NCBI RefSeq assembly: GCF_900209925.1 | Contig: NZ_LT907978.1 | Span: forward strand, 77,001-141,000 | DNA: 64,000 nucleotides | Source of the DNA: Anaerobutyricum hallii | GTDB taxonomy: Bacteria > Bacillota > Clostridia > Lachnospirales > Lachnospiraceae | Direction of reading: 5' to 3' | Part shown: in pieces, positions 11,036-61,677 of the stretch | How positions within the stretch are numbered: the stretch's first letter is position 1 | Layout of the letters: each line of letters starts with the position of its first letter | Notes under the pieces: model-generated | Seen by the model: only the letters and a program-made list of their open reading frames with translations | Database searches by the model: none | What the model was told of the DNA's origin: nothing | Program-made: the position numbers and the translations under genes

Positions 11036-11212
11036 ATACTAATTTGAGGGACTAAAGAAACGAAAACCAGAAATTTGATAGAAAAGAAAATGTGAAGATA
11101 GTCGCTTCGTAGAAAATGCCTGACCGGCATTTTTACTGGCTCCGACATCACATTTTCTTTTCTATCAAATTTCTGGTTTTCTGTCCTTTGGCTCCAGATG
11201 GAAATTAGTATT
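11036..11212 (+). repeat. Long palindrome A (177 bp), core in + orientation
   Basis: Ends AATACTAATTT and AAATTAGTATT are perfect inverted repeats. Long stem arms (ACCAGAAATTTGATAGAAAAG and its complement) enclose the core TAGTCGCT (11099-11106) facing GCTCCGA (11139-11145) and an apical AAAATGCC/GGCATTTT hairpin. It starts two bases after the csoR-like stop codon. Same type as copies E and J. Confidence 0.85.
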
Positions 11213-11235
11213 TAAATCTTGGATGGGAATAAGGG

Positions 11236-11475
11236 GATTGTCCAGAAGGCTATGGTTTTTAATCAGAGAACTGTTTCCCCATAAGAAATTCGCCATAAAA
11301 AAATAGCAGTGAAGGTCAAAGCCTTCCAATTAATAAGATTTCTTTCTCTATAATTCCGTTAAAATTTCGTTAACAATTCCTTTTCCTTTAGAAGACCGGC
11401 TACAAATCCAGTGGGAAAATATTCTCCTCTGGAGATTTTTATTCTAGTGAAAACCATAGACTTCTGGACAATCCC
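11236..11475. repeat. Second inverted repeat in the linker after palindrome A
   Basis: GGGGATTGTCCAGAAGG...ATGGTTTT at 11236 onward is repeated as its complement at 11450-11475. Related arm sequences flank the linkers after palindromes D and I, so the linker is part of the repeat unit. No reading frame or other signal is visible. Confidence 0.65.
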
Positions 11476-11650
11476 CTCTTTTTCCCTCAGACTAAAATAC
11501 TAATTCCTCATCAAGAACAGACAGCCGCTGAAACAAACTTTTATGCTGAATTGTAAGAAAAGCTATGATAAAGAAAAAAGAATGGTATGCTTCCTTTTAG
11601 GTAGACAGTTGAAAAAAATAAAACTGTTTATCTGAAAGGGGGCATTTTTT

Positions 11651-12310
11651 ATGGATAAGATTTCTCCAGAAGAAAAAATACAATGGATGGAAAAAATTCT
11701 TCAGAAAAAAGAATCCATCAGTTCTGTTGCATCAAAAATAGGAGTTTATTATACGACCGTTGATAAATGGCTTAGAAATTATCAATCAATTGGACCGGAA
11801 GCTTTTTTTCGAAAAGGTCATACCTATCGAACTCCTGCTCAAAAAGAAGCAGCTGTTTTCGATTATCTTTCTGGAAAAGGTTCTCTCCGGGATATCTGTG
11901 CCAAACACAAAATTTCAGATGCACAGATACTCAGAAGATGGATTATGAAGTATAATAGTCATGATAAGGAAACAGGAGGTAGACCAATCATGACTAAAGG
12001 CAGAAAAACTACATTTGAAGAACGTGTCGAGATCGTTCAATATTGCATAAAACATTCTCATAACTATTCGGAAACAGCAAAAAAATTTCACATTTCTTAT
12101 CATCAGGCCAGAAGTTATACTATAAGATATGAAGAAAACGGGGTGGATGGGCTGCAAGATAAGCGGGGAAAGAGAAAATCCCCAGAGGAAATGACGGAAG
12201 TAGAAAAACTGCGTGCAGAAGTAAGACTTCTGCGTGCGGAAAAAAGACGGGCAGAAATAGAGATATCTTTCTTAAAAAAATTAGAAGAGATAGAGAGGAG
12301 GGGAGGCTGA
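11651..12310 (+). CDS. IS3 transposase OrfA
   Basis: DNA-binding subunit of 219 residues with helix-turn-helix units near residues 12-40 (SSVASKIGVYYTTVDKWLRNY), 75-100 (SLRDICAKHKISDAQILRRW) and 120-155 (YSETAKKFHISYHQARSYT). A C-terminal leucine-zipper-like helix (KLRAEVRLLRAEKRRAEIEI) follows. The long multi-HTH form is typical of the IS150 branch. The run of seven A at 12274-12280 lets ribosomes shift -1 into orfB to make the OrfAB transposase. RBS AAAGGGGG precedes the ATG. Confidence 0.92.
   Translation: MDKISPEEKIQWMEKILQKKESISSVASKIGVYYTTVDKWLRNYQSIGPEAFFRKGHTYRTPAQKEAAVFDYLSGKGSLRDICAKHKISDAQILRRWIMKYNSHDKETGGRPIMTKGRKTTFEERVEIVQYCIKHSHNYSETAKKFHISYHQARSYTIRYEENGVDGLQDKRGKRKSPEEMTEVEKLRAEVRLLRAEKRRAEIEISFLKKLEEIERRGG
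12274..12280 (+). other. Programmed -1 frameshift site of the IS3 transposase
   Basis: A AAA AAA in the zero frame of orfA (codons TTA AAA AAA TTA). Slipping back one base continues as ATT AGA AGA GAT and stays open through the orfB domain. The orfA stop is 28 bases later. Confidence 0.75.
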
Positions 12311-13212
12311 GCCTGATACGCCAGGAACATATCTATCGGGCAATCAAGGAAGAACACGAAAAATATAACTATCCAATCCTGTTATTATGTGAAATAGGTG
12401 GAATCGCCAGATCATCCTACTACAAATGGCTCCATCACGTAGAGACACCGAACGAGAGATTTAACGAGGAATTGGCAGAGAAACTGGAACAATTACATGA
12501 AAAACATCCAGATATGGGATATAGAAGGTTAAATGACAAGCTGCGCCACGATGAAGACATTCGGGTAAATGATAAGAGAATCCTCCGTATTTGCAGAAAA
12601 AAACAGATCCGGTCCAACTTAAAGAGCCGGTATAATGGCTGTACCAGAGCATCAAACAACCCAGCATTTATTGCAGAAAACATTCTTAATAGAGAATTTA
12701 AGGCAGAACACCTTAATGAGAAATGGGTTACTGATGTAACGGAATTCAAATATGGAAACACCTTAGACAGTGTTCATAAAATATATTTAAGCGCTATATT
12801 AGACTTATGTGATAGACGGCCCGTTGCATATGTTATTGGGGATAGTAATAATAATGCGCTGGTATTTGAAACTTTTGATAAAGCAGTAAAGGCAAATCCA
12901 GAAGCCCATCCTATTTTTCACAGTGACAGAGGATATCAGTATACCTCCCGAAGATTCCATCAGAAATTGGAAGAAGCAGGAATGATACAGAGTATGTCGA
13001 GGGTAGCACACTGTACAGATAATGGAGTAATGGAAGGCTTTTGGGGAATCTTGAAACGGGAAATGTATTATGGAAAGAAATTTGAGAGCAGAGAAGAATT
13101 AGTGAAGGCAATCACAGAATATATAGATTACTATACAAACGACCGACCACAGAGAGGACTTGGAGTATTAACACCAATGGAATTTCATGAAAAGCAACGA
13201 TTGGCGGCATAA
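12280..13212 (+). CDS. IS3 transposase OrfB (integrase domain, made as OrfAB)
   Basis: The frame entered by the -1 shift is open for 310 codons; a TTG at 12472 is only an internal alternative start. The N-terminal part has the IS3 HTH_21-like segment (HPDMGYRRLNDKLRHDEDIRVNDKRI). The rve integrase core has DDE residues in WVTDVTEF, HSDRGYQYTS and NGVMEGFWGILKRE. It ends with the usual YIDYYTNDRPQRGLGVLTPMEF. It catalyses cut and copy of the element. No internal stop or shift is seen, so the enzyme looks functional. Confidence 0.9.
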   Translation: MRRDREEGRLSLIRQEHIYRAIKEEHEKYNYPILLLCEIGGIARSSYYKWLHHVETPNERFNEELAEKLEQLHEKHPDMGYRRLNDKLRHDEDIRVNDKRILRICRKKQIRSNLKSRYNGCTRASNNPAFIAENILNREFKAEHLNEKWVTDVTEFKYGNTLDSVHKIYLSAILDLCDRRPVAYVIGDSNNNALVFETFDKAVKANPEAHPIFHSDRGYQYTSRRFHQKLEEAGMIQSMSRVAHCTDNGVMEGFWGILKREMYYGKKFESREELVKAITEYIDYYTNDRPQRGLGVLTPMEFHEKQRLAA

Positions 13213-13216
13213 AAAT

Positions 13217-13262
13217 GTTGCCCGATATCCAACCGGGCAACACAAAAATTTTATATTTTTTT
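13217..13262 (+). terminator. Terminator at the 3' end of the IS3 element
   Basis: GTTGCCCG pairs with CGGGCAAC, followed by an A/T tract ending in seven T residues. It lies between the orfB stop and the right terminal repeat. Confidence 0.7.
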
Positions 13263-13289
13263 AATTGTCTACTTGACGGGATGCACACC

Positions 13290-13437
13290 AGAATTGTTAT
13301 AAGTATTGTATTTTGTGACTTTGCGCTATGGAATTCTGACCATAGGAACTTGGGACTCGTTTTTCCCAAGTTCCTGTTTTTCTGGGCAGAATGGAATGCT
13401 TAGCGCAACGGAACAAAATCAAACTTATAACAATTCT
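13290..13437. repeat. Long palindrome N (148 bp)
   Basis: AGAATTGTTATAAGT pairs with ACTTATAACAATTCT at the outside. Further in, TTGCGCTA/TAGCGCAA and GGAACTTGGG/CCCAAGTTCC pair in turn. It has the same architecture as the other long palindromes but I do not see the TAGTCGCT/GCTCCGA core. Confidence 0.75.
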
Positions 13438-13524
13438 TTTTTCTTTACAAGACTAACTACAATTCGGCTTGGTATCTTCTACATAAAGCGGTGTCTGTCT
13501 CCCCAGTAAATTAGTAGTTTGTTA

Positions 13525-19109: not shown

Positions 19110-19250
19110 GGAGACGCTCTTAGTAAATAAAATAACCTATATTTGTGACCTTAGTCGCTGCGGTTTGAATACTCGCTTACACACTCTCGTATCCAAACCT
19201 TGCTCCGAGGCCACAAATATAGGTTATTTTATTTACTGAGAGTTGTCTTT
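19110..19250 (+). repeat. Long palindrome B, core in + orientation
   Basis: Arms AGTAAATAAAATAACCTATA and its complement give a near-perfect stem of about 33 bp. The core TAGTCGCT (19152-19159) faces GCTCCGA (19202-19208), with an inner GGTTTGAATAC/GTATCCAAACC stem. It follows the exporter gene by 31 bases. The stem sequence is unrelated to copies A or D, yet the core is the same. Confidence 0.85.
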
Positions 19251-23444: not shown

Positions 23445-23580
23445 CAACAAGCAGAAAATAAAAATTTCAGACCATAGTATAATGTAATGTGAGAGCAAGT
23501 AAAAATGCCGGGAAGGCATTTTCTACGCAGTGATATCTTTACATTTGCTATGGTCTGAAATTTTTATTTTCGTTTGTTTC
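23445..23580 (-). repeat. Long palindrome C, core in - orientation
   Basis: Arms CAGAAAATAAAAATTTCAGA and complement, then ACCATAG/CTATGGT. The variant core reads on the minus strand: TATCACTGC (23528-23536) facing GCTCTCA (23490-23496). It is in antisense orientation to the kinase gene before it. The 280 bases after it up to the next gene hold only AT-rich sequence and the short frame at 23831. Confidence 0.8.
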
Positions 23581-30140: not shown

Positions 30141-30292
30141 ACAGCTAGAACAAAGGAAAGGACATAAAGAGATAAGAAGATAAAAAAGAAGTTCTGAACC
30201 GAAGTTCATAAAATTCATTTCAACATAGTCGAAAGAAAGAAGCTTCCGATTTGCTGAAGACAGTTTAAAGATTTCGAAAGGAGAAATGACTT

Positions 30293-30754
30293 ATGATGAT
30301 GCCTAGTATTTTTGGAGAGAATTTATTTGATGATTTTGATAGCTGGTTTGACGCACCGGTTGAGAAGAGATTTTTTGGTAAGAAGAATCCGTTATATGGA
30401 AAACATGCAAAGAACCTTATGAAAACAGATGTAAGAGAAAAGAAAGATAGCTATGAAGTAGATATTGATCTTCCAGGATTTAAGAAAGATGAGATTAAGC
30501 TGGAACTTGAGAATGGATATCTTACCATTTCTGCCGCAAAAGGTTTAGATAAAGATGAAACAGATAAAAAGACAGGTAAATATATCCGCCGTGAACGTTA
30601 TGCCGGTAACTTATCAAGAAGCTTTTATATCGGAGAAGGTGTAAAACAGGAAGATATTAAAGCCGCATTCAAGAATGGTATTTTGAGCATTACCGTTCCA
30701 AAAGAAGATAAAACAGCCAAGGAAGAGAAGAAATACATTACAATTGGTGAATAA
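30293..30754 (+). CDS. Hsp20 small heat-shock protein, copy 1
   Basis: Alpha-crystallin chaperone of 153 residues that holds unfolded proteins. The crystallin domain runs from MKTDVREKKDSYEVDIDLPGFKKDEIKLELENGYL to IKAAFKNGILSITVPK, with the A-x-x-x-G-x-L motif as FKNGILSI. Compared with copy 2 it has extra residues near the N-terminus (DSWFDAPVEKRFFGKKNPLYGKHAKN). It is transcribed from the CIRCE-type promoter at 30098-30140. The RBS region and first codons are identical over 37 bases to those of copy 2. Confidence 0.95.
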   Translation: MMMPSIFGENLFDDFDSWFDAPVEKRFFGKKNPLYGKHAKNLMKTDVREKKDSYEVDIDLPGFKKDEIKLELENGYLTISAAKGLDKDETDKKTGKYIRRERYAGNLSRSFYIGEGVKQEDIKAAFKNGILSITVPKEDKTAKEEKKYITIGE

Positions 30755-30923
30755 TTGATAAGATAATCTTAGAAAAAGATAAATCAGAATATTAATACAT
30801 GGAAAAATAACAGATACCCATGAGGTATTTGATAAGATATAGGTAATATGGATTATAAGAAAGGCGAAATATAGTAGCCTGAATATAGAGATTAAAATTT
30901 AGTTTTGAAGGGAGAAATGACTT

Positions 30924-31352
30924 ATGATGATGCCTAGTATTTTTGGAAATAATTTTGTAGATGATGTATTTGATGATATGTTCCCATTCGCAGGTAATTA
31001 TACAACTGCTAACTATGATCTTATGAAGACAGATGTAAAAGATGCCGGAGATCACTATGAACTCGAAATGGAAATGCCTGGAGTTGAAAAAGAAAACATC
31101 AAAGCAGAACTGAAAGATGGTTATCTGACAGTTACTGCACAGCAGAATACCAATAAAGATGAAAAAGATAAAGAAGGTAATTATATCCGTAAAGAAAGAT
31201 ACAGTGGAAGTTGCCAGAGAAGCTTCTATGTTGGTGAAGGCGTAAAACAGGAAGATTTGAAAGCTGCTTTTAATAACGGAATTCTTACGGTAGCAGTACC
31301 GAAAGAAGTTCAGAAACCGGTAGAGGAAAAACAATATATTGCAATTGAATAA
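30924..31352 (+). CDS. Hsp20 small heat-shock protein, copy 2
   Basis: Alpha-crystallin chaperone of 142 residues, paralogue of the gene 170 bases upstream. Domain MKTDVKDAGDHYELEMEMPGVEKENIKAELKDGYL to LKAAFNNGILTVAVPK. The leader and N-terminal MMMPSIFG codons (30911-30947) repeat those of copy 1 exactly (30280-30316), pointing to a duplication that included the ribosome-binding region. No separate CIRCE is seen in the 170-base gap, so it is probably co-transcribed or served by a weaker promoter. A bidirectional terminator follows. Confidence 0.95.
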   Translation: MMMPSIFGNNFVDDVFDDMFPFAGNYTTANYDLMKTDVKDAGDHYELEMEMPGVEKENIKAELKDGYLTVTAQQNTNKDEKDKEGNYIRKERYSGSCQRSFYVGEGVKQEDLKAAFNNGILTVAVPKEVQKPVEEKQYIAIE

Positions 31353-31382
31353 TAATCTATTCAGAAACGAATAGATAGAATG

Positions 31383-34773: not shown

Positions 34774-35682
34774 GTGATGAAAGGCTTGTTTATCATTAAT
34801 CCATCTTCTGGAAGGCAGAATTTTATTGACAAGATTAAGGAGATTGCGGGAATGCTGGTCATTGACCAGATATGTAATACAATAGATGTTTTCTATACAG
34901 AGAAACAGGATGATGCCTTGAATAAAGCAGCCGCACTGGAAAAAGGCCAGTATGATTTTGTCGTTGCTGTTGGAGGTGACGGAACACTTAATGAGGTAAT
35001 TAATGGAGTAGTGATGAGTAAAAGCGAGACTCCGGTTGCTGTCATTTCTGCAGGAACAGTTAATGATTTCGCTACATATTTAAATCTTCCGCAAACCCCG
35101 AGAGAATTCTGCGATATGATAGCAGATTTCCAACTTAAAAAAGTAGATGTTGGCAAAGTAAACGACAAGTATTTTATTAACGTAGTAGCCGCAGGCTTAT
35201 TGTCAGATACCGGATTTAAAGTATCGAAAGATAAAAAAGCAGTAATGGGTAAGTTAGCTTACTATTTAGAAGGAGCGGCAGAACTTCCAAAACAATTCGG
35301 AAAAAGCTGGAAAATGAGGTTTGCAACAGACGATAAGACAATAGAAGAAGAAGTTCTCTTATTTATGATTGCAAACTCACAGAGTGTAGGCGGATTTAAG
35401 GAGATTGCCCCGCTGGCATCAGTTTCCGATGGTTTATTTGATGCAGTGATTATAAAGAAAATGGATATTTTTCAGGTGCTTCCATTAATGATCTCTATAT
35501 TACAGGGGGATCATGTAAATCATCCGGCAGTAGAATATATTCAGACAGAAAACCTTCAGATAGAGAATCTGTCCGGAGAGGAAGTAAAAGTAGATTACGA
35601 TGGAGAAGAATTACCGGAAGGTTTCCCGGTAAATATCAGTATCATTCCACAGGCAATACAAATCGTGGTACCGGGAAAATAA
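34774..35682 (+). CDS. Diacylglycerol kinase-like lipid kinase (DgkB/YegS family)
   Basis: Protein of 302 residues, DAGK_cat domain. GLFIINPSSGR at the N-terminus, the nucleotide loop VVAVGGDGTLNEVINGV (about residues 67-83) and the following GTVNDFATYLNLP are family hallmarks; the Asp of GGDGT is catalytic. It phosphorylates diacylglycerol or a related lipid and so recycles it into phosphatidic acid, important where lipoteichoic acid or the dlt system produces diacylglycerol. Start is GTG 34774 or ATG 34777, with AGGGAGG upstream. Its stop codon abuts palindrome D. Exact lipid substrate not inferable. Confidence 0.9.
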   Translation: MMKGLFIINPSSGRQNFIDKIKEIAGMLVIDQICNTIDVFYTEKQDDALNKAAALEKGQYDFVVAVGGDGTLNEVINGVVMSKSETPVAVISAGTVNDFATYLNLPQTPREFCDMIADFQLKKVDVGKVNDKYFINVVAAGLLSDTGFKVSKDKKAVMGKLAYYLEGAAELPKQFGKSWKMRFATDDKTIEEEVLLFMIANSQSVGGFKEIAPLASVSDGLFDAVIIKKMDIFQVLPLMISILQGDHVNHPAVEYIQTENLQIENLSGEEVKVDYDGEELPEGFPVNISIIPQAIQIVVPGK

Positions 35683-35845
35683 ACACTAATTTGTAAATTT
35701 TGTGTAGACGAAAAAAGAAAGAATACCATATCCCATCTGCTCTGTAGTCGCTGTGTTTAAAATGCTCGTTCGCATCTTAAACATGCTCCGAAGCCGCATC
35801 TGGGATAGGTATTCTTTCTTTTTTCTGACTATACAAAACTCACAG
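35682..35845 (+). repeat. Long palindrome D, core in + orientation
   Basis: End AACACTAATTT begins at the last base of the lipid kinase stop codon. Arms GTAGACGAAAAAAGAAAGAA and complement, then ATCCCATCTG / CATCTGGGAT, core TAGTCGCT (35745-35752) facing GCTCCGA (35785-35791), apical TTTAAAATGC/GCATCTTAAA. Same type as F, G, H and I. Forms a composite (35682-36341) with palindrome E. Confidence 0.88.
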
Positions 35846-36163
35846 TTGGTGAGAATGGGGATTGCTCGGAAATCTATGGTTTTCATCCAAATAAAGGCTC
35901 CAGATGAAGAATATTTTCTTACGGCAAAATAGTTCTTTGATTAAAAATCATAATCTCCTGGAGAATCCTCTTCTCTTTCCAACAGAAATCACTAATTTGC
36001 TATTTATTATTAAAAACAGACAGCTGCTGAAACAAAATTCTATGCTGAATTGTAAGAAGACTAACTACAATTATTTAGGAGAAGATATTCTCTTCTGGAG
36101 ATTTTTATTCCAAATAAAAACCAAAGCATTCTGGGCAAGCCACTTATTCCCATCCAAGCTTTA

Positions 36164-36341
36164 AATACTAATTTCCATCTGGAACCAAAGAACAGAAAAG
36201 CAGAAATTTGAGATAGAAGAAAATGTGATGTCGGAGCTAGTAAAAATGCCGGTCAGGCATTTTCTACGAAGCGACTATCTTCACATTTTCTTCTATCTCA
36301 AATTTCTGCTTTTCGTCTCTCTAGTCCATCAAATTAGTATT
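36164..36341 (-). repeat. Long palindrome E (178 bp), core in - orientation
   Basis: Ends AATACTAATTT and AAATTAGTATT. On the minus strand TAGTCGCT (36270-36277) faces GCTCCGA (36231-36237). Same type as A and J. The linker between D and E (35846-36163) has no gene; it contains arms related to those at 11236-11475 and a CAGACAGCTGCTGAAACAAA stretch shared with 11519 onward. Confidence 0.88.
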
Positions 36342-36390: not shown

Positions 36391-36668
36391 GAATATAGAG
36401 TTGTTGCGTTGAGAGAAGCTACGGTATGGATGTTTTTAAGAGAGTTGATGGTTGGTGAGAATCAGCAGGCGGAAGTACCTTTCCACTTTTTGAGCATTGA
36501 CGAAAGTCAAAGGCTGGTATCCTTTAACGTACCGACGAGAGGCTGTTATCGTTTTTCATATTTAAGACAGGATCGTTTGATGTATTTGGATATGTTTATA
36601 TAACAGCAATTTGGGTGGCAACACGGAATTCTTCGTCCCATGATGTAGGGTAGAAGGGTTCTTTTTTT
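36391..36668 (+). promoter_or_regulatory. T-box riboswitch of serS
   Basis: The T-box sequence GGGTGGCAACACGG (36613-36626) is followed by the terminator arms TTCTTCGTCCC and GGGTAGAAGGG and seven T. Stem I elements are visible upstream: AGAGAG, GATGGTTGGTGAGAATCAGCAG-type distal loops around 36438-36470. Uncharged tRNA-Ser would pair with the T-box bulge and keep the gene on. Candidates for the specifier are UCC (in CUUUCCAC) and AGC (in UGAGCAUU); I cannot decide between them. A short reading frame inside it (36409-36603) is not a gene. Confidence 0.88.
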
Positions 36669-36819
36669 ATCTCAGTCGAGAAGACTCCCACCTCTTTCAG
36701 GTGGTGAGTGACAGCAAATTTGTCTCAGTGGGAGTCCAATCTCCGACTGAGATAAACGCTACGCGAGGATGAGCAGTGATTCTGTAAAGAATATGTCAGC
36801 TTACGCTGATCAGAATCAC
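36669..36819 (+). promoter_or_regulatory. Extra structured leader between T-box and serS (unassigned)
   Basis: An outer stem ATCTCAGTCG/CGACTGAGAT (36669-36678 with 36744-36753) encloses GACTCCCA/TGGGAGTC, which in turn encloses CCACCT/AGGTGG and TGAGTGACA/TGTCTCA hairpins, so a three-way junction forms. A further hairpin GTGATTCTG/CAGAATCAC with an inner GTCAGC/GCTGAT follows (36776-36819). It is downstream of the T-box terminator, so it exists only in read-through mRNA. I do not recognise it as a known class. Confidence 0.65.
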
Positions 36820-36897: not shown

Positions 36898-38184
36898 ATG
36901 TTAGATTTAAAATTTGTTAGAGAAAATCCAGAAGTTGTAAAACAGAACATCCGTAATAAATTTCAGGATGAGAAGCTTCCTTTAGTAGATGAGGTAATTG
37001 AATTAGATGCACAGAGAAGAGCAACTCAGCAGGAAGCAGATGATTTAAGATCAAATAGAAAGAAGATTTCTAAGCAGATCGGTGCATTAATGGCACAGGG
37101 TAAGAAAGAGGAAGCTGACGCTGTAAAAGAGCAGGTTACGAAGAATGCAGAACGCCTGGCAGAGCTTGAAAAATTAGAAGCAGAACTTGGGGAAAAAGTG
37201 AAGAAAATTATGATGATTATTCCTAATATCATTGACCCAAGTGTTCCAATCGGTAAAGATGATAGTGAGAACGTTGAGATTCAGAAGTATGGTGAACCAT
37301 TTGTTCCTGAGTTTGAAGTTCCATACCATACAGATATTATGGAAAGATTTGATGGAATTGATTTAGATAGTGCAAGAAAAGTTGCCGGTAACGGATTCTA
37401 TTATTTAATGGGTGATATTGCGAGACTTCATTCAGCAGTAATTTCTTATGCAAGAGATTTCATGATTGACAGAGGATTTACTTATTGTGTACCTCCTTTC
37501 ATGATTCGCAGCAATGTTGTTACAGGTGTTATGAGTTTTGCCGAGATGGATGCGATGATGTATAAAATCGAAGGTGAAGATTTATATTTAATCGGAACTA
37601 GCGAACATTCCATGATTGGTAAGTTTATTGATACTGTTTTACCAGCGGATACGCTGCCAAGAACACTGACATCTTATTCTCCATGTTTCCGTAAGGAAAA
37701 AGGTGCACATGGTATCGAAGAACGAGGAGTATATCGTATTCACCAGTTTGAAAAACAGGAAATGATCGTTGTATGTGAGCCAGAAGAAAGCAAGATGTGG
37801 TTTGATAAATTATGGCAGAACACTGTAGATTTATTCCGTTCTATGGATATCCCTGTTCGTACACTTGAATGTTGTTCCGGAGACTTAGCAGATCTTAAAG
37901 TAAAATCTATCGATGTAGAAGCATGGTCTCCTCGTCAGAAGAAATATTTTGAAGTAGGAAGCTGCTCTAATTTAGGAGATGCTCAGGCAAGACGACTGAA
38001 GATTCGTGTAACAGGTGAAAAAGGTAAATATTTTGCCCACACATTAAATAATACAGTAGTAGCACCACCTCGTATGTTAATTGCATTCCTTGAGAATAAC
38101 TTAAATGAGGATGGCTCTGTAAGAATTCCAGCACCTCTCCGTCCATATATGGGAGGAAAAGAAGTATTAAAACCAATAAAATAA
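36898..38184 (+). CDS. serS: Seryl-tRNA synthetase
   Basis: Class II synthetase of 428 residues that charges tRNA-Ser. The N-terminal coiled-coil tRNA-binding arm is about residues 30-105. Catalytic motifs are motif 2 SYSPCFRKEKGAHGIEERGVYRIHQFEK and motif 3 GSCSNLGDAQARRLKIR with PPRMLIAFLENN near the end. The start is ATG 36898 (MLDLKFVRENPEVV) with AGGAGG 10 bases before it. The frame is open further upstream, but that part is leader RNA. Controlled by the T-box at 36391-36668. The stop codon touches palindrome F. Confidence 0.97.
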   Translation: MLDLKFVRENPEVVKQNIRNKFQDEKLPLVDEVIELDAQRRATQQEADDLRSNRKKISKQIGALMAQGKKEEADAVKEQVTKNAERLAELEKLEAELGEKVKKIMMIIPNIIDPSVPIGKDDSENVEIQKYGEPFVPEFEVPYHTDIMERFDGIDLDSARKVAGNGFYYLMGDIARLHSAVISYARDFMIDRGFTYCVPPFMIRSNVVTGVMSFAEMDAMMYKIEGEDLYLIGTSEHSMIGKFIDTVLPADTLPRTLTSYSPCFRKEKGAHGIEERGVYRIHQFEKQEMIVVCEPEESKMWFDKLWQNTVDLFRSMDIPVRTLECCSGDLADLKVKSIDVEAWSPRQKKYFEVGSCSNLGDAQARRLKIRVTGEKGKYFAHTLNNTVVAPPRMLIAFLENNLNEDGSVRIPAPLRPYMGGKEVLKPIK

Positions 38185-38350
38185 ATACTGATCTGTAGAT
38201 TTCGTGTAGACGAAAAAAGAAAAAAATAATACATCCCATCTGCTTTGTAGTCGCTGTGTTTAAAATGCTCGTTCGCATCTTAAACACGCTCCGAAGCCGC
38301 ATCTGGGATGTATTATTTTTTTCTTTTTTCTGGCTATTCTAAATCTACAG
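38184..38350 (+). repeat. Long palindrome F, core in + orientation
   Basis: End AATACTGATCT starts at the last base of the serS stop. D-type arms (GTAGACGAAAAAAG...), core TAGTCGCT (38248-38255) facing GCTCCGA (38288-38294). It forms a 710-bp composite with G (38184-38893). The 378-base linker (38351-38728) holds no gene; it shares CCAGAAG/TTCCGGGAAATTAA and GCTGAATTGTAAG stretches with other linkers. Confidence 0.88.
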
Positions 38351-38728
38351 TTTAATAACATGGACTACACCAGAAGCCTATGACATTCCGGGAAATTAAT
38401 TTCTAAAGGACTGACATTTAAATGGTTGTATGTTGTTTACACTTGAAAATTGAATGCAATTCAACAGAAATACGCTTCCTTCTGGAGATTTTATCTGAAT
38501 AAGAATCGTAGATTTCTGACAACCCCCTTTCTCTTATTTTTTAACTGATTTGTAGAATGAGGTTAGACAGCTACTGTAATAGAACTTTTGGCTGAATTGT
38601 AAGGCAAGTATAGCAAAGAAAAGAAGATTAAATACAATTCAATCACATACAACAATTTGAATGTCAATCCTTTAGACTTTAATTTCTCGAGAATTCATAA
38701 TCTTTTGGAGAATCCCCATTCTCTCCAA

Positions 38729-38893
38729 CTGTGGATTTAAAGTAGTCAGAAAAAAGAAAGAATACCATATCCCAGATGCGGCTTGGGAGCGTATTTAAGA
38801 TGCGGAAGAGCATCTTAAATACAGCGACTACAGAGCAGATGGGATATGGTATTCTTTCTTTTTTCGTCTACATTAAATCTACAAATCAGGATT
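38729..38893 (-). repeat. Long palindrome G, core in - orientation
   Basis: D-type palindrome, inverted relative to F. On the minus strand TAGTCGCT (38823-38830) faces GCTCCCA (38784-38790). Its outer end AAATCAGGATT contains the dacF-like stop codon (complement at 38886-38888). Confidence 0.88.
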
Positions 38894-51942: not shown

Positions 51943-52380
51943 ATGAAAGTAGTATTTGGATGTGATCCTAACGCAACACAGTTTAAATTAGACTTAATGG
52001 AATATGTAAAGAGTCTTGGACATGAAGTAGCAGACTTAGGAAGTGATGATCCGATTTATGCGAATACAGCCATTGAAGTAGCAAAAGCTGTAGCTGCTAA
52101 AGAATATGACAGAGGTATCATCGTTTGTGGAACAGGTATTGGTGTTTCTATTGCAGCCAATAAAGTAAAAGGAGCTTATGCTGCATGTATTCATGATGTA
52201 TATCAGGCTCAGAGAGCACAGCTTTCTAATCATGCAAACATTATTACTATGGGTTCACAGGTTATCGGAATCGAACTTGCAAAACAGCTTGTTAAAGAAT
52301 ATCTTTCTGTAGAATGGGATCCTAACTGCAGATCTGTTGCAAAAGTACAGAGAATCATTGACTTTGAAAATGAAGAATAA
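51943..52380 (+). CDS. RpiB/LacAB-type sugar-phosphate isomerase, copy 1
   Basis: Isomerase of 145 residues. Family active-site segment VCGTGIGVSIAANKVKGAYAA is present. The usual N-terminal Asp-His pair of RpiB is changed to Asp-Pro (VFGCDPNATQFK), and QRAQLSNHANIITMGSQV follows. The change suggests a substrate other than ribose 5-phosphate, for example a tetrulose or other pentose phosphate as in EryH/EryI or Ler/Der isomerases. It lies between the phosphatase and the kinase genes. A second member follows at 54140. Confidence 0.88.
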   Translation: MKVVFGCDPNATQFKLDLMEYVKSLGHEVADLGSDDPIYANTAIEVAKAVAAKEYDRGIIVCGTGIGVSIAANKVKGAYAACIHDVYQAQRAQLSNHANIITMGSQVIGIELAKQLVKEYLSVEWDPNCRSVAKVQRIIDFENEE

Positions 52381-54139: not shown

Positions 54140-54604
54140 ATGTCAGAAGTAAAAGTAATCGGAATTGGTAATGACCATGCAGCAGTAGATCTTAAGAATG
54201 AGATCAAGGCATATCTTGAGGAAAAAGGTTATAAGGTAGTAAATTATGGAACAGATTCTTCCGAAAGCTGTGATTATCCAATCTACGGAGCAAAAGTAGG
54301 CCACGCAGTTGCAAGTGGAGAGGTAGATGCCGGTGTTTTAATCTGTGGAACAGGAATCGGTATCTCTATTGCAGCCAATAAAGTAAAGGGTGTACGAGCT
54401 GCCGTTGTCAGTGAACCGGTGTCCGCAAGATTAACAAAAGAACACAACAATGCAAATATTATTGCATTTGGTGCAAGAATTGTTGGAAGTGAGATGGCTA
54501 AAGCAATCGTAGACGCATGGCTTGATGCTAAATATATCGGAAGCGGCCGTCACGAGAGACGCGTAAACATGATTGAAGAGGAAGCAGCAAAGTATAATAA
54601 ATAA
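54140..54604 (+). CDS. RpiB-type sugar-phosphate isomerase, copy 2
   Basis: Isomerase of 154 residues. It keeps the RpiB N-terminal Asp-His (IGIGNDHAAVDLKNEI) and the active-site ICGTGIGISIAANKVKGVRAAVVSEPVSARLTKEHNNANIIAFGARIVG with Cys and His. The C-terminal GSGRHERRVNMIEE is typical of RpiB. It interconverts an aldose and ketose 5-phosphate (ribose 5-P or a related pentose/tetrose phosphate). It shares the ICGTGIG core with copy 1 but not the N-terminal acid-base pair. Confidence 0.92.
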   Translation: MSEVKVIGIGNDHAAVDLKNEIKAYLEEKGYKVVNYGTDSSESCDYPIYGAKVGHAVASGEVDAGVLICGTGIGISIAANKVKGVRAAVVSEPVSARLTKEHNNANIIAFGARIVGSEMAKAIVDAWLDAKYIGSGRHERRVNMIEEEAAKYNK

Positions 54605-54630: not shown

Positions 54631-55050
54631 ATGAGTCGTTTTATGGAAATAAAATCAAAGGATATAGAGAAAGCCTTTGAAGATGAGAGAAGACAGTATT
54701 TCGTTGGAAACTTAAAGAAACCACAACATATCCCTTTTGTTAAGTCAGACAATACGGAAATGGGATTAACTGCTTATGATAAATTCACTGGTGAGCCGGC
54801 TCATCGTCACTCTGTGGCAAAAGAATATGCTTATGTCATTTCCGGTAGAACACAGTATATGGACCTTGATACAAGAGAAGTATATGAATATCGTGCGGGC
54901 GATTTCTTTGCGACCTTTCCGGGAACAACTTATGTTCAGAAATCCGAAGCTGGAACAAAGATGATCTTTGTAAAAGAACCATCGATTAATGATAAAGAGC
55001 TTGTACCGATGGACGAAGAAGCTAAAAAATGGATGGAAACGGAATTCTGA
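54631..55050 (+). CDS. Cupin-domain protein
   Basis: Single-domain cupin of 139 residues. Motif 1 is FTGEPAHRHSVAKEYAYVISGRTQYM with metal-binding His residues and Glu; motif 2 is EYRAGDFFATFPGTTYVQKSEAGTKMIFVKE with Gly-Asp but a weak His. It lies 26 bases after the second isomerase, last gene of the operon. It could be a sugar isomerase or epimerase, or a sensor domain; it is too short for lyxose isomerase. The stop TGA lies inside the end of palindrome H. Confidence 0.85.
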   Translation: MSRFMEIKSKDIEKAFEDERRQYFVGNLKKPQHIPFVKSDNTEMGLTAYDKFTGEPAHRHSVAKEYAYVISGRTQYMDLDTREVYEYRAGDFFATFPGTTYVQKSEAGTKMIFVKEPSINDKELVPMDEEAKKWMETEF

Positions 55051-55210
55051 TTTGTAGATTTAATGTAGACGAAAAAAGGAAAAAATAATACATCCCATCT
55101 GCTCTGTAGTCGCTGTGTTTAAGATGCTCATCCGCATCTTAAACACGCTCCGAAGACGCATCTGGGATGTATTATTTTTTCCTTTTTTCTGGCTATCTAA
55201 ATCTACAGTT
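55043..55210 (+). repeat. Long palindrome H, core in + orientation
   Basis: End AATTCTGATTT contains the cupin stop. D-type arms (GTAGACGAAAAAAG... and complement), core TAGTCGCT (55107-55114) facing GCTCCGA (55147-55153). A shortened linker follows (to about 55320, related to 38351-38460), and no facing partner is present. The rest up to 55437 is AT-rich with nothing recognised. Confidence 0.88.
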
Positions 55211-55436: not shown

Positions 55437-57419
55437 ATGAATATTTTAATAAAACCAAGAAAGAATAGATATATTATTTATGCTATAATTATCGCGCTTT
55501 TTTCTACGATTGGAATGCAGATTTCGTTATTACATACCAATATAGGAAAAGTACTGGAAAAAATAGAATATGATTCCGTATGGAATCATATGATGAGTGT
55601 TTTAAGAATAAGTATAACAAGAAAAAGTGATGTATTGTTGTTTTATCAGATAGCAGCGGCAGTTATTTTTATTATATTTCTTATTGTTTTTTCATACAGG
55701 TTTTCTGTTCGGGAAGTAGTAAGTGCAGGGTTATTATCAATATTGTTTGGATTTACCATGTGGTTCCGGACTGTATTTTCGCATAAAGAATCATGGAACT
55801 ATTTTGTACGAAACAGTTATGTCAAAGTATTAAATGGATGGTATATACTTGGATATGCGTTGCTGGCTTTTGGAATTTTTCTTTTAGTTGGCAAGGCTGT
55901 AACAGGGCATTGTATAAAGCAGGAAAGTTCAAAAGATTCCCTTAGAAGTAGAGGAAAGGGAAAGAATTATAGTGCCAAAACAGTATTTTTAATATGCATG
56001 GCTGTATTAATTGTTTTTTGGTTACCATATTACATTGTTTTCTGGCCGGGATTTCAGCATACAGATTTGCCAACGCAGATGTTGCAGTTTTTTCATATCC
56101 GTACGAGATTTCAGGGGAGAGTTATAACAGATGGAATCAATATATTTTATAGTAATGATCATCCTTTTTTACAAACAATGTTAGTTGGCGGGGCACTTAA
56201 ACTGGGACTTGGAGTTCATAATATCAATTTTGGATATGCAGTATATAGTTTTATTCAAATGCTCTTATTTATTGTAGCTTTCAGTGGTATTTTAGCTACG
56301 TTATATCATTTCAAAGTAAGTGTATTTATATTAAAGATAAGCTTGTGTTTATATGCCATAGTTCCTGTTTTTCCACTATATGCTTTATTAATAGGTGGTG
56401 ATAGCTTTTTTTCTGTTTTTTATCTGTTTTATATGGTAGGAATTTTATGGATTTTTTATACAAAGGGTGACATTCTGAAAAATAATAAATTTATAATTGC
56501 AATGATAATAGAAATAATCCTTATGTCTACATCTAAAAATCAAGGAGTATATGTTGCAGCGGCAGTTTTTGTACTTTGTTTAATCTACTTTAAAAGATAT
56601 AGGATAAGGATATCCGTATGTATGTTAATACCAATATTATTATTTCAGTTTGTATATTGTGGTCCATTTTTTAAAATTGCCAGAGTTGGTACTACAGGAA
56701 AACAGGAAGCTTTATCTGTTTGTTTTCAGCAGACAGCCAGATATATAAAATATCATGGAGATGAAGTTACATCCCAAGAAAAAGAAGCGATTAATAAAGT
56801 TTTAAATTATGATGTGATTGGAGAAAAGTATGATCCGAATCTATCCGATCCTGTAAAAATGACATTTAAGTTAGAAGCGACAGGAGAGGATTTAAAAAAT
56901 TATTTTGCTGTCTGGCTTCAAATGGGGTTAAAACATCCCAGCGAATATATACAATCATTTATAGACAATACATATGGTTATTATACTATTAGTTTTGATA
57001 ATCATAAGGGAGTATATTTTAAACCGGAAATTATGAATTTTTATATTGGTAAACGTGATTGGGTAAAAAAGGATAAACATATTGTAGAATTATTAAGAAA
57101 AATTCAGGCAGAAGTACCGGAAAAACGGAAACCTATTAGGGAAAACGGAGTACAAATAATAAAAGTAATTCAAAAAGTTCCGATTTTTAATTGCTTTTTT
57201 AATCCGGGAACGCTCACTTGGCTTATGGTAATGGGATTTTTTGTATTGTGGACAAAAAGAAAATATAATTCTATGCTTGCCTTTTTGCCAGTATTTTTGA
57301 TTTTTGGTGTATGTTTGCTTTCGCCTAAAAATAATAATCTTCGATATATTTATCCACTTTGTTGTATGATACCGGCGATGCTGGCAGCGGCATTTGGAGA
57401 GAAAAATCCTGATTTATAG
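55437..57419 (+). CDS. Large polytopic membrane protein (DUF6020-like)
   Basis: Membrane protein of 660 residues with roughly 12-14 hydrophobic helices, first near residues 13-33. Conserved-looking polar spots include WLPYYIVFWPGFQHTDLPTQMLQFF, YSNDHPFLQTMLVGG and PRYLY-like NLRYIYPLCCMIPAM near the end. A long soluble segment runs around residues 420-580. The shape (Asp/His motifs between early helices) resembles GT-C glycosyltransferases, and clostridial proteins of this kind are named DUF6020. Activity unknown. The last codons and TAG stop are encoded by the end of palindrome I. Confidence 0.72.
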   Translation: MNILIKPRKNRYIIYAIIIALFSTIGMQISLLHTNIGKVLEKIEYDSVWNHMMSVLRISITRKSDVLLFYQIAAAVIFIIFLIVFSYRFSVREVVSAGLLSILFGFTMWFRTVFSHKESWNYFVRNSYVKVLNGWYILGYALLAFGIFLLVGKAVTGHCIKQESSKDSLRSRGKGKNYSAKTVFLICMAVLIVFWLPYYIVFWPGFQHTDLPTQMLQFFHIRTRFQGRVITDGINIFYSNDHPFLQTMLVGGALKLGLGVHNINFGYAVYSFIQMLLFIVAFSGILATLYHFKVSVFILKISLCLYAIVPVFPLYALLIGGDSFFSVFYLFYMVGILWIFYTKGDILKNNKFIIAMIIEIILMSTSKNQGVYVAAAVFVLCLIYFKRYRIRISVCMLIPILLFQFVYCGPFFKIARVGTTGKQEALSVCFQQTARYIKYHGDEVTSQEKEAINKVLNYDVIGEKYDPNLSDPVKMTFKLEATGEDLKNYFAVWLQMGLKHPSEYIQSFIDNTYGYYTISFDNHKGVYFKPEIMNFYIGKRDWVKKDKHIVELLRKIQAEVPEKRKPIRENGVQIIKVIQKVPIFNCFFNPGTLTWLMVMGFFVLWTKRKYNSMLAFLPVFLIFGVCLLSPKNNNLRYIYPLCCMIPAMLAAAFGEKNPDL

Positions 57420-57569
57420 ATTTAATGTAGACGAAAAAAGAAAAAATAATACATCCCATCTGCTCTGTAGTCGCTGTATTTAAGATGCTCATCCGCATCT
57501 TAAACACGCTCCCAAGCCGCATCTGGGATGTATTATTTTTTTCTTTTTTCTGGCTATCTAAATTTACAG
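57405..57569 (+). repeat. Long palindrome I, core in + orientation
   Basis: End AATCCTGATTT; the upstream gene stops at TAG inside it (57417-57419). D-type arms, core TAGTCGCT (57468-57475) facing GCTCCCA (57508-57514). Forms a 481-bp composite with J (57405-57885). The linker contains arms related to those beside A and D (GGGGATTTTCCAGAAGG, TTCTGGGGGACCAT). Confidence 0.88.
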
Positions 57570-57708
57570 TTGGCGAGAATGGGGATTTTCCAGAAGGTTA
57601 TGGATTCTCGGGGAATTAAAGTCTAAAGGATTGACGCATTCTTCTGGAGTTTTCCATTTGAATAGAAATTGTATATTTCTGGGGGACCATCTTATTTTTC
57701 CTGCTCAA

Positions 57709-57885
57709 AATGCTGATTTCATCTGGCGTCAAAGAACAGAAAAGCAGAAACTTGATATAGAAGAAAATGTGATGTCGGAGCAAGTAAAAATGCCGGTCAG
57801 GCATTTTCTGTGCCGCGACTATCTTCACATTTTCTTCTATATCAAGTTTCTACTTTTCGTTTCTTTAGTCCATTAAATCAGTATT
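57709..57885 (-). repeat. Long palindrome J (177 bp), core in - orientation
   Basis: Ends AATGCTGATTT and AAATCAGTATT. On the minus strand TAGTCGC (57815-57821) faces GCTCCGA (57775-57781). Almost the same as copies A and E in its stem. Confidence 0.88.
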
Positions 57886-58380: not shown

Positions 58381-58393
58381 TATGGAGATTTTT

Positions 58394-59206: not shown

Positions 59207-59302
59207 TTTAGAAGATAGTATACAGATATCCTGTATGTGTTATTTGTGATTTGAAAAATTTTAAATAGTTACAAGATAGATGTATGACCTGTGGAGGTAT
59301 TT

Positions 59303-60139: not shown

Positions 60140-60166
60140 ATGAAAAATTAAAAGGAGGAGAGACAA

Positions 60167-60901
60167 ATGTCTAAAAAACAAAAGAGTCTTGCAGTTCTTG
60201 CGAGCGTATTTTTAATGCTTTTTACAATCGCACCAGTTTCTAATGCGATGCACATCATGGAGGGATTCCTTCCAGTGAAATACTGTATCTTATGGGGAGT
60301 AATCTGTGTACCATTTTTAGTAATCGGTTTTATGAATATCAAAAAGGTACTTGGAAATGACAGAAGAACTCTTACAGTACTTGCTTTAACAGGTGCTTTC
60401 GTGTTCGTACTTTCATCTTTAAAGATTCCTTCAGTAACAGGAAGCTGTTCCCATATGACAGGTACAGGTCTTGGAGCAATCTTATTTGGACCATGTGTAA
60501 CAAGTATTTTAGGTATCATCGTATTAATCTTCCAGGCAATCTTACTTGCACATGGTGGATTAACAACATTAGGAGCTAACTGCTTCTCTATGGCAATTGC
60601 TGGACCAATCATTTCCTGGGTATTATATAAATTACTTCAGAAAGCAAATGTAAATAAGAGAGTAGCTATATTCGTTGCGGCATTCTTAGGTGATTTATTT
60701 ACATATTGTGTAACAAGCTTCCAGCTTGCACTTGCTTATCCTTCAGAAGTTGGTGGTGTAGGAGCATCCATCGTAAAATTCCTTGGAATCTTCGCTACAA
60801 CACAGCTTCCATTAGCAGTTATCGAAGGTATTCTTACTGTAGTTATCGTTATTGCACTTGAGACATATGCAAAAGACGAATTAAGCAGTCTGGAATTTTA
60901 A
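60167..60901 (+). CDS. cbiM: Cobalt ECF transporter substrate-binding membrane protein CbiM
   Basis: Membrane protein of 244 residues. The N-terminal signal segment ends near SNA and leaves Met-His-Ile-Met-Glu-Gly-Phe-Leu-Pro, whose second residue His forms the Co2+ site with the chain terminus. Other metal-site segments are [18 protein letters not shown] and [20 protein letters not shown]. About six further helices. RBS AGGAGGAG. CbiM is the core of cobalt selectivity, so this operon imports Co2+ (or Ni2+ as NikM does; the MHIMEGFLP end occurs in both). Confidence 0.94.
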
Positions 60902-60915
60902 TAGGAGGAAAGAAA

Positions 60916-61248
60916 ATGACAAAAAATACAAAAACAGTAGTTATTTTATTAGTAATTGCAGCATTGATCGCAATTGTTCCACTGTTTGCGCTTAAAGGTG
61001 CAGAATTTGGTGGATCTGATGATGCCGGTAGCGAAATGATTTCTGAAATTCAGGGAAAAGAATATGAACCATGGTTCACACCAGTACTTGAAACAGCACT
61101 TGGTGGAGAACTTCCTGGAGAAATCGAAAGCTTAATCTTCTGTCTTCAGACAGGAATCGGAGTAGGAATCGTAGCATTCGTACTTGGACGATTTGTAGAA
61201 AGAAAGAAGTGGCAGGATAAAGATAACAATTCTACGTCTTCTAAATAA
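60916..61248 (+). CDS. cbiN: Cobalt transporter accessory protein CbiN
   Basis: Small membrane protein of 110 residues with two helices (about residues 7-26 and 72-94) and an extracellular loop (FGGSDDAGSEMISEIQGKEYEPWFTPV) typical of CbiN. It contacts CbiM and lets metal reach the site. Its presence supports cobalt rather than nickel specificity of the system. Last gene of cbiQ-O-M-N; palindrome K starts 10 bases after the stop. Confidence 0.92.
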   Translation: MTKNTKTVVILLVIAALIAIVPLFALKGAEFGGSDDAGSEMISEIQGKEYEPWFTPVLETALGGELPGEIESLIFCLQTGIGVGIVAFVLGRFVERKKWQDKDNNSTSSK

Positions 61249-61258
61249 TCGATAGACA

Positions 61259-61389
61259 AACGAAAACCAAAGAATCCTATCCTTATATTTGTGAAAGTAT
61301 CACTGCGGGTTGAATGTTCGCTTAACGGCTCACATTCAATCCTCGCTCTAATATCGCAAATATAAGGATAGGATTCTTTGGTTTTCTGT
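61259..61389 (+). repeat. Long palindrome K, core in + orientation
   Basis: Near-perfect stem of about 29 bp (AACCAAAGAATCCTATCC and complement). The variant core TATCACTGC (61298-61306) faces GCTCTAA (61345-61351), with an inner GGTTGAATG/CATTCAATCC stem. The stem sequence differs from all other copies. Confidence 0.85.
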
Positions 61390-61418
61390 TACTTTTTTCT
61401 GTTACTTTTTTCTGTTAC
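61380..61418. repeat. Three tandem 13-bp repeats
   Basis: TTTTTTCTGTTAC repeated three times (61380-61392, the first with GGTTTTCTGTTAC, then 61393-61405 and 61406-61418), overlapping the end of palindrome K. It looks like slippage. The following 125 bases show nothing recognisable. Confidence 0.85.
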
Positions 61419-61545
61419 TTTACAATGATCTATCAGAATGGGTCAGTCCTTCACAAATGCTATTCCACAGAAGTCCTGTATCTTCTGTCTTATTCCCCAT
61501 CCCACCCAACATAATTGCGGATTTGAAATAATTATAGCATTACAA

Positions 61546-61677
61546 CAAACAGAACCCCGCCACCCTTTATTATGTAAAAATGCGCCTTAGAGCAAACTCT
61601 TAATGCGGGCGAGCATTAAGAGTGCAGTGATACGAAGCATTTTTACATAATAAGGGGTGGTGGGGTTCGTCTGTTTA
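61546..61677 (-). repeat. Long palindrome L, core in - orientation
   Basis: Arms CAGAACCCCGCCACC / GGTGGTGGGGTTCGTCTG, then TTATGTAAAAATGC/GCATTTTTACATAA. On the minus strand TATCACTGC (61624-61632) faces GCTCTAA (61587-61593), inner ACTCTTAATGC/GCATTAAGAGT. It faces palindrome K across about 160 bases between convergent genes. Confidence 0.85.

Follow-up and report, generated by a model that had tools for sequence, protein, structure and literature searches.

Long palindromes at gene ends in two sister species of Anaerobutyricum: a family of dispersed DNA repeats whose arms are probably kept paired by DNA-level copying

Introduction

Why should the two arms of a long palindrome stay complementary when its sequence changes from one subfamily to the next, and does this complementarity speak for RNA or for DNA? 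The question is raised by a window of 64,000 nucleotides (the window being the whole stretch of Anaerobutyricum DNA that was analysed), in which a first-pass annotation had seen an undescribed-looking family of twelve intergenic palindromes, with a common core and stems that always pair, and had taken their compensating changes as the mark of a selected structure, RNA or cruciform DNA.

Twelve hairpins with a common plan

All twelve palindromes are present where they had been placed, as long hairpins on either strand (-50 to -89 kcal/mol as RNA), and their cores and subfamilies match what had been described. A covariance model of the kind the annotation had proposed (R1) was built from 28 copies, six of them from the window (B, C, H, J, K and L); 31 copies had been picked for the alignment, and the alternative-core rows L025, L026 and L028 were omitted. 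With E <= 1e-19 it recovers exactly these twelve sites from the window, and besides them two antisense echoes, of B and K. The boundaries first drawn include an outer, imperfect stem, which makes palindromes of 131-178 bp near stop codons; the sharply bounded unit is an inner cassette of 121-133 bp, running from GACG to CTG. The term intergenic needs a rider, as in G, H and I the stop codon of the upstream gene lies inside the outer flank. The cassettes are listed here with the orientation of their core (+ in A, B, D, F, H, I and K, - in C, E, G, J and L).

11059..11183, +, cassette A: A/E/J type, inside the outer palindrome 11036-11212, 24 nt past the stop codon at 11032-11034
19113..19245, +, cassette B: B type with a long apical loop and TTG at the 3' base
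23452..23574, -, cassette C: TATCACTGC core, in antisense to the gene upstream of it
35707..35827, +, cassette D: D type, 24 nt past a stop codon, one arm one base short (by eye)
36193..36317, -, cassette E: A/E/J type; a search of 120 nt revealed no stop codon in sense
38209..38332, +, cassette F: D type, directly 3' of the gene used in the 3'-end comparison
38747..38868, -, cassette G: D type, sense to a convergent gene on the minus strand, with the TGA stop of this gene in the flank
55068..55191, +, cassette H: D type, where the ortholog of A. hallii has a B-type hairpin
57430..57552, +, cassette I: D type, 10 nt past a stop codon
57737..57861, -, cassette J: A/E/J type; a search of 120 nt revealed no stop codon in sense
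61259..61388, +, cassette K: TATCACTGC core and a long apical loop, 10 nt past a stop codon
61550..61671, -, cassette L: TATCACTGC core, sense to a convergent minus-strand gene, 24 nt past a stop codon

The gene upstream of cassette F is one which we take to encode seryl-tRNA synthetase; no counterpart of the cassette was seen in those flanks of the same gene that were inspected in relatives.

Read from 5' GACG to CTG 3', a cassette consists of a near-perfect stem of about 34 bp, then the conserved, asymmetric core, and innermost a stem-loop. Asymmetry is thus conserved at two spots, the base of the cassette and a point some 34 bp above it, and the 5' arm measures 34-36 nt in 71 of 73 hairpins. 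The GACG...CTG foot is found in 97 of 103 copies of the window's own genome and in 111 of 134 copies of A. hallii, the remainder showing mostly variants of the same foot. The conserved core is real, and it is probably under selection. Cassette A and its surroundings provide examples of the core and of neighbouring repeats.

11099..11107, +, 5' half of the core (TAGTCGC...)
11138..11145, +, 3' half of the core (GCTCCGA)
11232..11259, +, repeated downstream block (GGGGATT..CCAGAAGGCTATGG), by eye and with an approximate boundary
11503..11559, strand not assigned, repeat of family D6 with a short GACAGC..GCTG remnant
36002-36058 and 38549-38605, other D6 copies, 86% and 61% identical to the first

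Inspection by eye places the GGGGATT..CCAGAAGGCTATGG block 3' of many copies. As for the GACAGC..GCTG remnant of D6, it is possibly the scar of a deleted hairpin.

A family found in two sister species

The window's own genome holds at least 150 copies, since all 150 scored candidates matched, out of 1,406 found at first look. When this genome and that of A. hallii were treated alike, 138 of 138 scored candidates matched in each, so that each has at least 138 copies, while none of the other 22 genomes of the genus gave a match (up to 138 candidates scored per genome). The two carriers are sister species, in which the copies are dispersed rather than arrayed. At the gathering score, Rfam recognised only two tRNAs in the window and no family for the hairpins, which look undescribed. 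We found no description of them in the open-access literature searched (subscription journals being barely covered), and the excerpts consulted of surveys of stem-loop and REP families (PMC2267715, PMC12306157) do not mention Anaerobutyricum. An origin from phages or plasmids was considered and set aside on the basis of searches covering hairpin D and one core pattern: no counterpart of hairpin D turned up among 50,697 phage and 72,556 plasmid records, and the core pattern matched no viral contig of IMG/VR.

A preference for gene ends

The hairpins lie predominantly in sense orientation, directly after the stop codon. Among 108 hairpins, a gene 3' end is found within 120 nt of the GACG side in 74 and of the CTG side in 15, the stretch having no ORF on the GACG side in 6 and on the CTG side in 12. 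A sense stop codon within 120 nt is absent for 48 of 227 copies, and at least two copies of A. hallii stand, by eye, beyond a terminator-like stem. A role of the hairpins at the 3' ends of mRNAs is possible. In relatives, terminator-like stems are seen by eye at the positions of hairpins. No other terminator was detected between stop and hairpin in any of 31 genes followed by a hairpin, and one was detected within 250 nt after the hairpin in 3 of the 31, an absence that says little, because the finder picks up no more than 35 of 191 gene ends that have no hairpin (and 8 of 222 sites inside genes); the gap between stop and hairpin is usually too short for another terminator. As judged by eye, B-type stems are followed by no T run; in A- and D-type copies the arms are rich in T, but these bases are paired and the arms end in CTG.

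How the arms vary together

The covariation is very strong. Measured by pair counts with shuffled and slid controls, its score is 0.70, against 0.16 for the shuffled and 0.09-0.15 for the slid alignments, and double changes are found in 37 of 37 modelled pairs. That the stems always pair is true of 95.1% of cells, and untrue of positions 7-8 from the core, which pair in about 40% of 103 own-genome copies. In 237 hairpins, the stems contain 86 G.T and 90 A.C oppositions (24 vs 22 in the 103 hairpins of the own genome, 62 vs 68 in the 134 of A. hallii). In the best-paired subset, chosen by a score that itself counts G.T as paired, G.T comes slightly ahead (own genome 17 vs 14, A. hallii 27 vs 22, together 44 vs 36). 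Sixteen tRNAs in the same loci gave 31 G.T and no A.C, with a finder that favours G.T, and a smaller tRNA control of 14 cells gave 5 and 0; two stem controls, both small, gave 6 vs 6 and, for terminator-like stems, 18 G.T vs 12 A.C. Compensated changes comprise 72 double transitions and 90 double transversions. Signs of exchange between arms were also noted by eye among the 237 copies, the base being inverted relative to the core in 2 and symmetric in 4. Parity of G.T and A.C, compensated transversions and symmetrised or inverted bases together point to DNA-level copying between the arms, and the covariation does not look RNA-driven. Thus the view that it is the mark of a selected RNA finds no support; of the two structures that had been proposed, cruciform DNA fits better.

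Possible exchange of cassettes and the search for a mover

D-type hairpins occur within two unrelated flank types, and are 91% identical across them, against 34% and 26% for the flanks; the hairpin variant matches its flank type in 32 of 39. The flank types appear by eye to have TIR-like ends, yet similarity runs on past them. Of 23 orthologous gene ends that could be compared between the two carriers, 17 bear a cored hairpin (14 according to the detector and 3 by eye). In 12 of these 14 detector sites the hairpins have turned over in sequence, their mean identity being 0.619 vs 0.624 for random pairs; cassette B has retained a near-identical hairpin at the orthologous A. hallii site. The 22 nt beside the hairpin keep a weak memory of orthology (0.622 vs 0.580), and fresh insertion at the same preferred sites is therefore possible as well. 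Other sites hold a hairpin in only one of the two species (A. hallii C111 102038 and 27097, own genome 1197073). No clean target-site duplication was found; site 27097 may be read as a deletion in the own genome between short direct repeats.

Two families of movers were searched for, Y1 transposases and reverse transcriptases. Neither qualifies as a dedicated mover: the former is present in 16 of 24 genomes of the genus and the latter in 8 of 24 (the own genome gave nine matches, and A. hallii two, in one open frame), so that neither is exclusive to the carriers. Hairpins were found at 6 of the 13 Y1 loci scanned in the two carriers. The closest ones are separated from the gene by roughly 0.3 to 2.7 kb, and their arrangement is not constant. 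Loss of SbcCD was entertained as a permissive change; SbcD is present in both carriers, and loss of palindrome cleavage is therefore not the permissive factor.

Weighing the explanations

In our opinion the hairpins are probably a family of dispersed palindromic DNA repeats akin to REP or YPAL elements, whose arms are kept paired by copying at the DNA level and which spread by hairpin replacement. DNA synthesis or recombination in folded DNA would copy arm from arm, or hairpin from hairpin, keeping the arms complementary. The cassette would be overwritten time and again by the current subfamily of the species, through ectopic gene conversion or single-stranded hairpin transposition, and replacement would stop where shared sequence stops, at GACG and CTG. 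Core and base would be retained because a putative protein of the copying or moving step recognises them. Their position at gene ends makes it probable that the hairpins are transcribed, and they may have a secondary use in protecting or ending mRNAs. Several counterpoints deserve mention: strong sense polarity is equally expected of a functional RNA, a strictly Watson-Crick double-stranded RNA would show no G.T excess either, the terminator-like control departs from parity by 18 to 12 only, and variants follow their flank type in 32 of 39 cases.

Among the rivals, the one that retains most of our attention, though we doubt it, is a non-autonomous element actively transposed in trans by an IS200/Y1-like or other transposase, which would target gene ends and hit favoured sites repeatedly, thus accounting for shared positions. 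Patchy presence, sites filled in one species only and sharp cassette ends speak for it; against it stand the lack of exclusivity of both tested mover families, the want of a clean end duplication and the second reading of site 27097. A selected cis-acting RNA of the 3' UTR (a hairpin stabilising or processing the mRNA, with a protein-binding core, whose covariation would come from selection on RNA) would explain the sense orientation directly after stops, the strong covariation and the conserved internal core; we hold it to be improbable, for G.T does not exceed A.C, unlike in tRNAs (31 vs 0, with a finder favouring G.T), transversions are compensated as commonly as transitions, bases are symmetrised or inverted, and some copies lack a nearby sense stop (48 of 227) or lie past a terminator-like stem. 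It is just as improbable that we are looking at large intrinsic or bidirectional terminators which have replaced the ordinary ones: the hairpins do occupy the terminator position, where relatives carry terminator-like stems, with few other terminators in sight (0/31 before, 3/31 after), but B-type stems end without a T run, the missing terminators are uninformative for the reasons given, and termination needs no conserved unpaired core. Sense hairpins directly after genes, species-typical subfamilies and free stem sequence resemble the attC sites of integrons, whose boxes follow the consensus RYYYAAC/GTTRRRY. Scattered attC-like sites that a tyrosine recombinase would act upon in folded, single-stranded form are nevertheless very improbable, as boxes of this consensus are not apparent by eye at the base and the copies are dispersed, not arrayed. 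Finally, there is a speculation that we consider unlikely: the 122 bp hairpin would be a cassette that a putative enzyme exchanges in the form of a folded single strand of DNA, reading two conserved asymmetric loops about three helical turns apart, targeting gene ends along transcription and overwriting older hairpins in place, as a mobile system for swapping hairpins that is distinct from RAYT/REP and from integrons.

Relation to known repeats

De Gregorio (2006) reportedly found that the YPAL repeats of Yersinia prefer sites directly after stop codons and terminators; the present palindromes, of 131-178 bp and close to stops, are alike in size and in placement. A published review describes YPAL (or RU-2) as an intergenic mobile repeat of about 168 bp, whose targets span or adjoin dyad symmetries and are duplicated over 3-26 bp, and which is reportedly co-expressed with upstream genes, perhaps affecting the stability of their RNA (PMC2229807). 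Compared by description only, our family differs in its phylum and in having no clean target duplication, and its seemingly swappable cassettes and proposed DNA-level correction of arms have no counterpart in the passages of that review that were consulted. The same source presents the miniature elements ERIC, NEMIS and RUP, which likewise lie between genes, measure about 100-200 bp and give transcripts that fold into long stem-loops. They are bounded, however, by terminal inverted repeats, have TA ends and duplicate their targets, whereas here a fixed unpaired core is held within a stem of free sequence.

REP, BIME and REPIN elements, which go with the RAYT transposase, are likewise high-copy extragenic palindromes, mostly downstream of coding regions, with an unpaired foot tag and inverted pairs (PMC3733652, a paper whose main text lacks the word Firmicutes). 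REPs measure 20-40 bp, against 121-133 bp here with a stem of about 34 bp, a foot which is not GTAG, and no Y1 transposase gene regularly flanked by hairpins. The same paper reports CGTC-tagged families without a dedicated transposase and with stems of 8-9 bp; our foot is 5' GACG, and CGTC is confined to the 3' terminus of the opposite strand. As to mechanism, Monttinen and Loytynoja (2022; PMC8794818) show template switching restoring perfect pairing by arm-from-arm copying, with loop inversions as its footprint. Their hairpins are those of RNA genes under selection, while here the process would explain hundreds of dispersed repeats.

What the family may teach us

The hairpins look like a clear natural case of textbook RNA covariation that lacks the G.U signature of RNA selection, a warning not to take covariation by itself for proof of a functional RNA. 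A species of the same genus, A. soehngenii, is reportedly in trials as a beneficial gut microbe (PMC12087665). With reference to genome maintenance, the two sister species offer a large set of sites at which the survival, correction and replacement of long palindromes can be followed in bacteria that bear SbcD.

The hairpins and their folding

All twelve of the long intergenic palindromes described by the first-pass annotation are present in the window, and both strands of each can form a long hairpin:
A, 11036-11212
B, 19110-19250
C, 23445-23580
D, 35682-35845
E, 36164-36341
F, 38184-38350
G, 38729-38893
H, 55043-55210
I, 57405-57569
J, 57709-57885
K, 61259-61389
L, 61546-61677

A covariance model trained on 28 copies, of which six come from the window, recovered exactly these twelve sites, the weakest with E about 1e-19; two extra matches were antisense echoes. 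At gathering score, Rfam recognized in the window tRNA (two genes) and no other family. It gave no T-box match at that score; we nevertheless take as T-box-like a stretch, GGTGGCAACACGG...CGTCCC, at 36600-36700, in the leader of the gene ending at 38184.

Read in the orientation of their core, the copies comprise an outer flank, a base (5' GACG, 3' CTG) and a stem of about 34 paired bases; above this stem come the core, an inner stem and a loop. The core reads TAGTCGC / GCTCCGA, replaced in C, K and L by TATCACTGC / GCTCTMA. The 5' arm measures 34-36 nt in 71 of 73 copies from the genome holding the window (the own genome); one has 33 nt and one could not be parsed. With copies anchored on the core, allowed one shift each and preselected for pairing at 22 or more of 32 positions, pairing reaches 91-100% at each of stem positions 10-34, nearly all of which display all four Watson-Crick pairs. 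Across 118 own matches, 95.1% of the cells are paired and double changes occur in all 37 modelled pairs. Covariation scored 0.70, compared with 0.156 for shuffles and 0.09-0.15 for slid partners, in an alignment that leans towards structure because it was fitted to the model.

The window holds other repeats as well. A block, GGGGATT..CCAGAAG..TATGG (window 11232-11259, 38702-38708, 57589-57595 and elsewhere), lies 3' of many of them in both species, often followed by AATTAAATTCTAAAGGATTGACA. At 30272-31356 two short ORFs resembling each other lie in tandem (repeat families D4 and D8) and may represent a duplicated small heat-shock gene. A CGTGIGISIAANK-like stretch (repeat D7), at 52126-52172 and 54344-54390, is common to two ORFs that in our estimation resemble sugar-phosphate isomerase B.

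Copy number and spread

The own genome, a single 3.52 Mb contig, holds at least 150 copies: all 150 scored matched, from 1,406 first-look candidates. In a search of the genus, the own genome and that of the sister species, A. hallii DSM 3353 (hereafter A. hallii), had at least 138 matches each (138 of 138 scored in both); with up to 138 candidates scored in each, no match came from the other 22 genomes. The same two carriers were the sole source of matches in 397 genomes of the family, where weak or rare copies could be missed elsewhere since eight candidates per genome were scored under stricter filters. A core pattern covering two subtypes, scanned over 84,980 species (one genome per species, own-genome records possibly excluded), found 75 stretches, all in A. 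hallii DSM 3353. In contiguous stretches, counting matches with E below 1e-10 and disregarding antisense echoes, we found 20 hairpins over 200 kb of the own genome and 18 over 195 kb from A. hallii; at this density each genome would carry about 300-350.

Selection on RNA or copying of DNA

The annotation had seen in the conserved core and the compensating stem changes the mark of a selected structure, RNA or cruciform DNA. Covariation is indeed very strong; selection on RNA as its cause is not supported, as G.T and A.C mismatches are about equal, transversions are common and some bases have become symmetric. Selection on RNA should tolerate G.U better than A.C. At positions 10-34 we counted 24 GT and 22 AC in own stems (2,575 cells, 103 hairpins), and 62 GT and 68 AC in A. 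hallii (3,350 cells, 134 hairpins), the GT counts being biased upward by a detector that scored GT as paired. In the best-paired subsets GT is slightly ahead, 17 against 14 (own) and 27 against 22 (A. hallii). Sixteen tRNAs, compared at the same loci, gave 31 GT and 0 AC, with a tRNA finder that itself favours GT; terminator-like stems gave a weak contrast (18 against 12, or 6 against 6). Along minimum spanning trees, fully compensated changes comprise 24 double transitions and 20 double transversions in 56 D-type copies, 48 and 70 in 108 B-type copies. Pairs changed on one side alone number 9 GT and 10 AC in the D-type, 22 and 22 in the B-type. In RNA genes, according to PMC8794818, G-U or U-G is involved in 78.5% of two-step compensations. 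The main way round this argument for DNA is that a strict need for perfect double-stranded RNA could explain the absent GT excess. The base tells more: among 237 copies, classed by motif and then by eye, six have lost its asymmetry, L088 and L149 being inverted relative to the core and L095, L097, L108 and L172 symmetric, which is what template switching or arm-to-arm recombination leaves.

A cassette and its turnover

The inner hairpin behaves as a cassette. Two flank types, unrelated to each other, surround the 122-bp D-type hairpins: type I accounts for 13 and type II for 26, 3 of 42 being unclassified and dropped. The hairpins have 91% identity across types, 93% within type I and 91% within type II. 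The 24-nt flanks share 34% upstream and 26% downstream across types, against 48% and 90% within type I, 73% and 66% within type II; identity breaks within one base of GACG, and at CTG. Mixing is not free, as variants tend to match their flank type: the nearest-neighbour hairpin has the matching type in 32 of 39 cases (300 shuffles: mean 21, maximum 29).

Comparison of 103 own hairpins with stretches of A. hallii sequence left 24 orthologous gene ends after repeated matches were dropped, one at a contig edge; with gene-end identities of 71 to 98%, a few pairs may be paralogs. Of the 23 ends compared, 14 carry a detected hairpin in A. hallii; by eye, the other nine comprise three cored hairpins (one sense, two antisense), two core-less ones and four without any. 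At 12 of the 14, between-species hairpin identity is 0.619, against 0.624 for random pairs; at the other two it is 96-98%. The adjoining 22 nt are slightly more alike than random (0.622 against 0.580). Either old hairpins were overwritten at shared gene ends, or both species were hit there repeatedly. Some sites differ clearly between the species. At A. hallii C111 27097, a hairpin lies past a terminator-like stem; in the own genome the hairpin is missing there and the downstream block is kept. The site at C111 102038 has no own match. No clean target duplication was seen at the sites compared. Short core-less hairpins with a similar base occupy orthologous sites (L100, and C111 near 100,900, opposite own position 1257662); they probably arose from the long hairpin by internal deletion.

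Position relative to genes

Within 120 nt, 74 of 108 hairpins have a gene 3' end on the GACG side and 15 have one on the CTG side (67 own, 12 window, 29 A. hallii; simple ORF calls, with no ORF on the GACG side in 6 and on the CTG side in 12). Under a second ORF rule, among copies with a readable base, a sense stop codon occurs within 120 nt in 78 of 101 own cases and in 101 of 126 from A. hallii, most commonly 16-18 or 23-26 nt away. Nine of the window's twelve copies (A, B, D, F, G, H, I, K, L) follow a stop in sense; C, E and J do not. Stop codons are frequent in the flanks, so that the palindrome includes the end of some genes, and the flank start can be the gene's own sequence, since genes of relatives end naturally in a similar AAATTCTGA-like stretch at own position 1196444. 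Convergent genes often bear one hairpin each, hence many plus-then-minus pairs.

In the relatives examined, gene ends matching those before F, H and own 1196444 lack such a hairpin; several show, by eye, ordinary terminator-like stems. A terminator was detectable between stop and hairpin in none of 31 genes, and within 250 nt beyond the hairpin in three; in the controls one was detected at 35 of 191 gene ends that lack a hairpin and at 8 of 222 sites inside genes. A role at the RNA 3' end is possible: the detector being insensitive and the stop-to-hairpin gaps short, these counts simply permit it.

Mechanism and relatives

Two mover families were tested, and neither yielded a dedicated enzyme: of the 24 genomes of the genus, 16 have Y1 transposases and 8 have reverse transcriptases, with hairpins near 6 of 13 Y1 loci, in no constant arrangement. 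An IS3-like element (11651-13212) starts about 440 bp past the outer palindrome of hairpin A; its two neighbouring ORFs encode transposase HTH and integrase-core (rve) domains. Both carriers have SbcD, part of a hairpin-cutting nuclease, so that break-induced conversion is possible. We favour a process whereby hairpins would be copied while the DNA is folded, with exchange between copies. As to REP/RAYT membership, the hairpins have neither the defining foot tag, GTAG, nor, at the 13 loci scanned, the arrangement of a Y1 transposase gene flanked by the repeats. By description, the nearest kinds are REP and CGTC-tagged repeats (PMC3733652) and the YPAL, ERIC, NEMIS and RUP elements (PMC2229807), and it is in the manner of these repeats that the hairpin family works.
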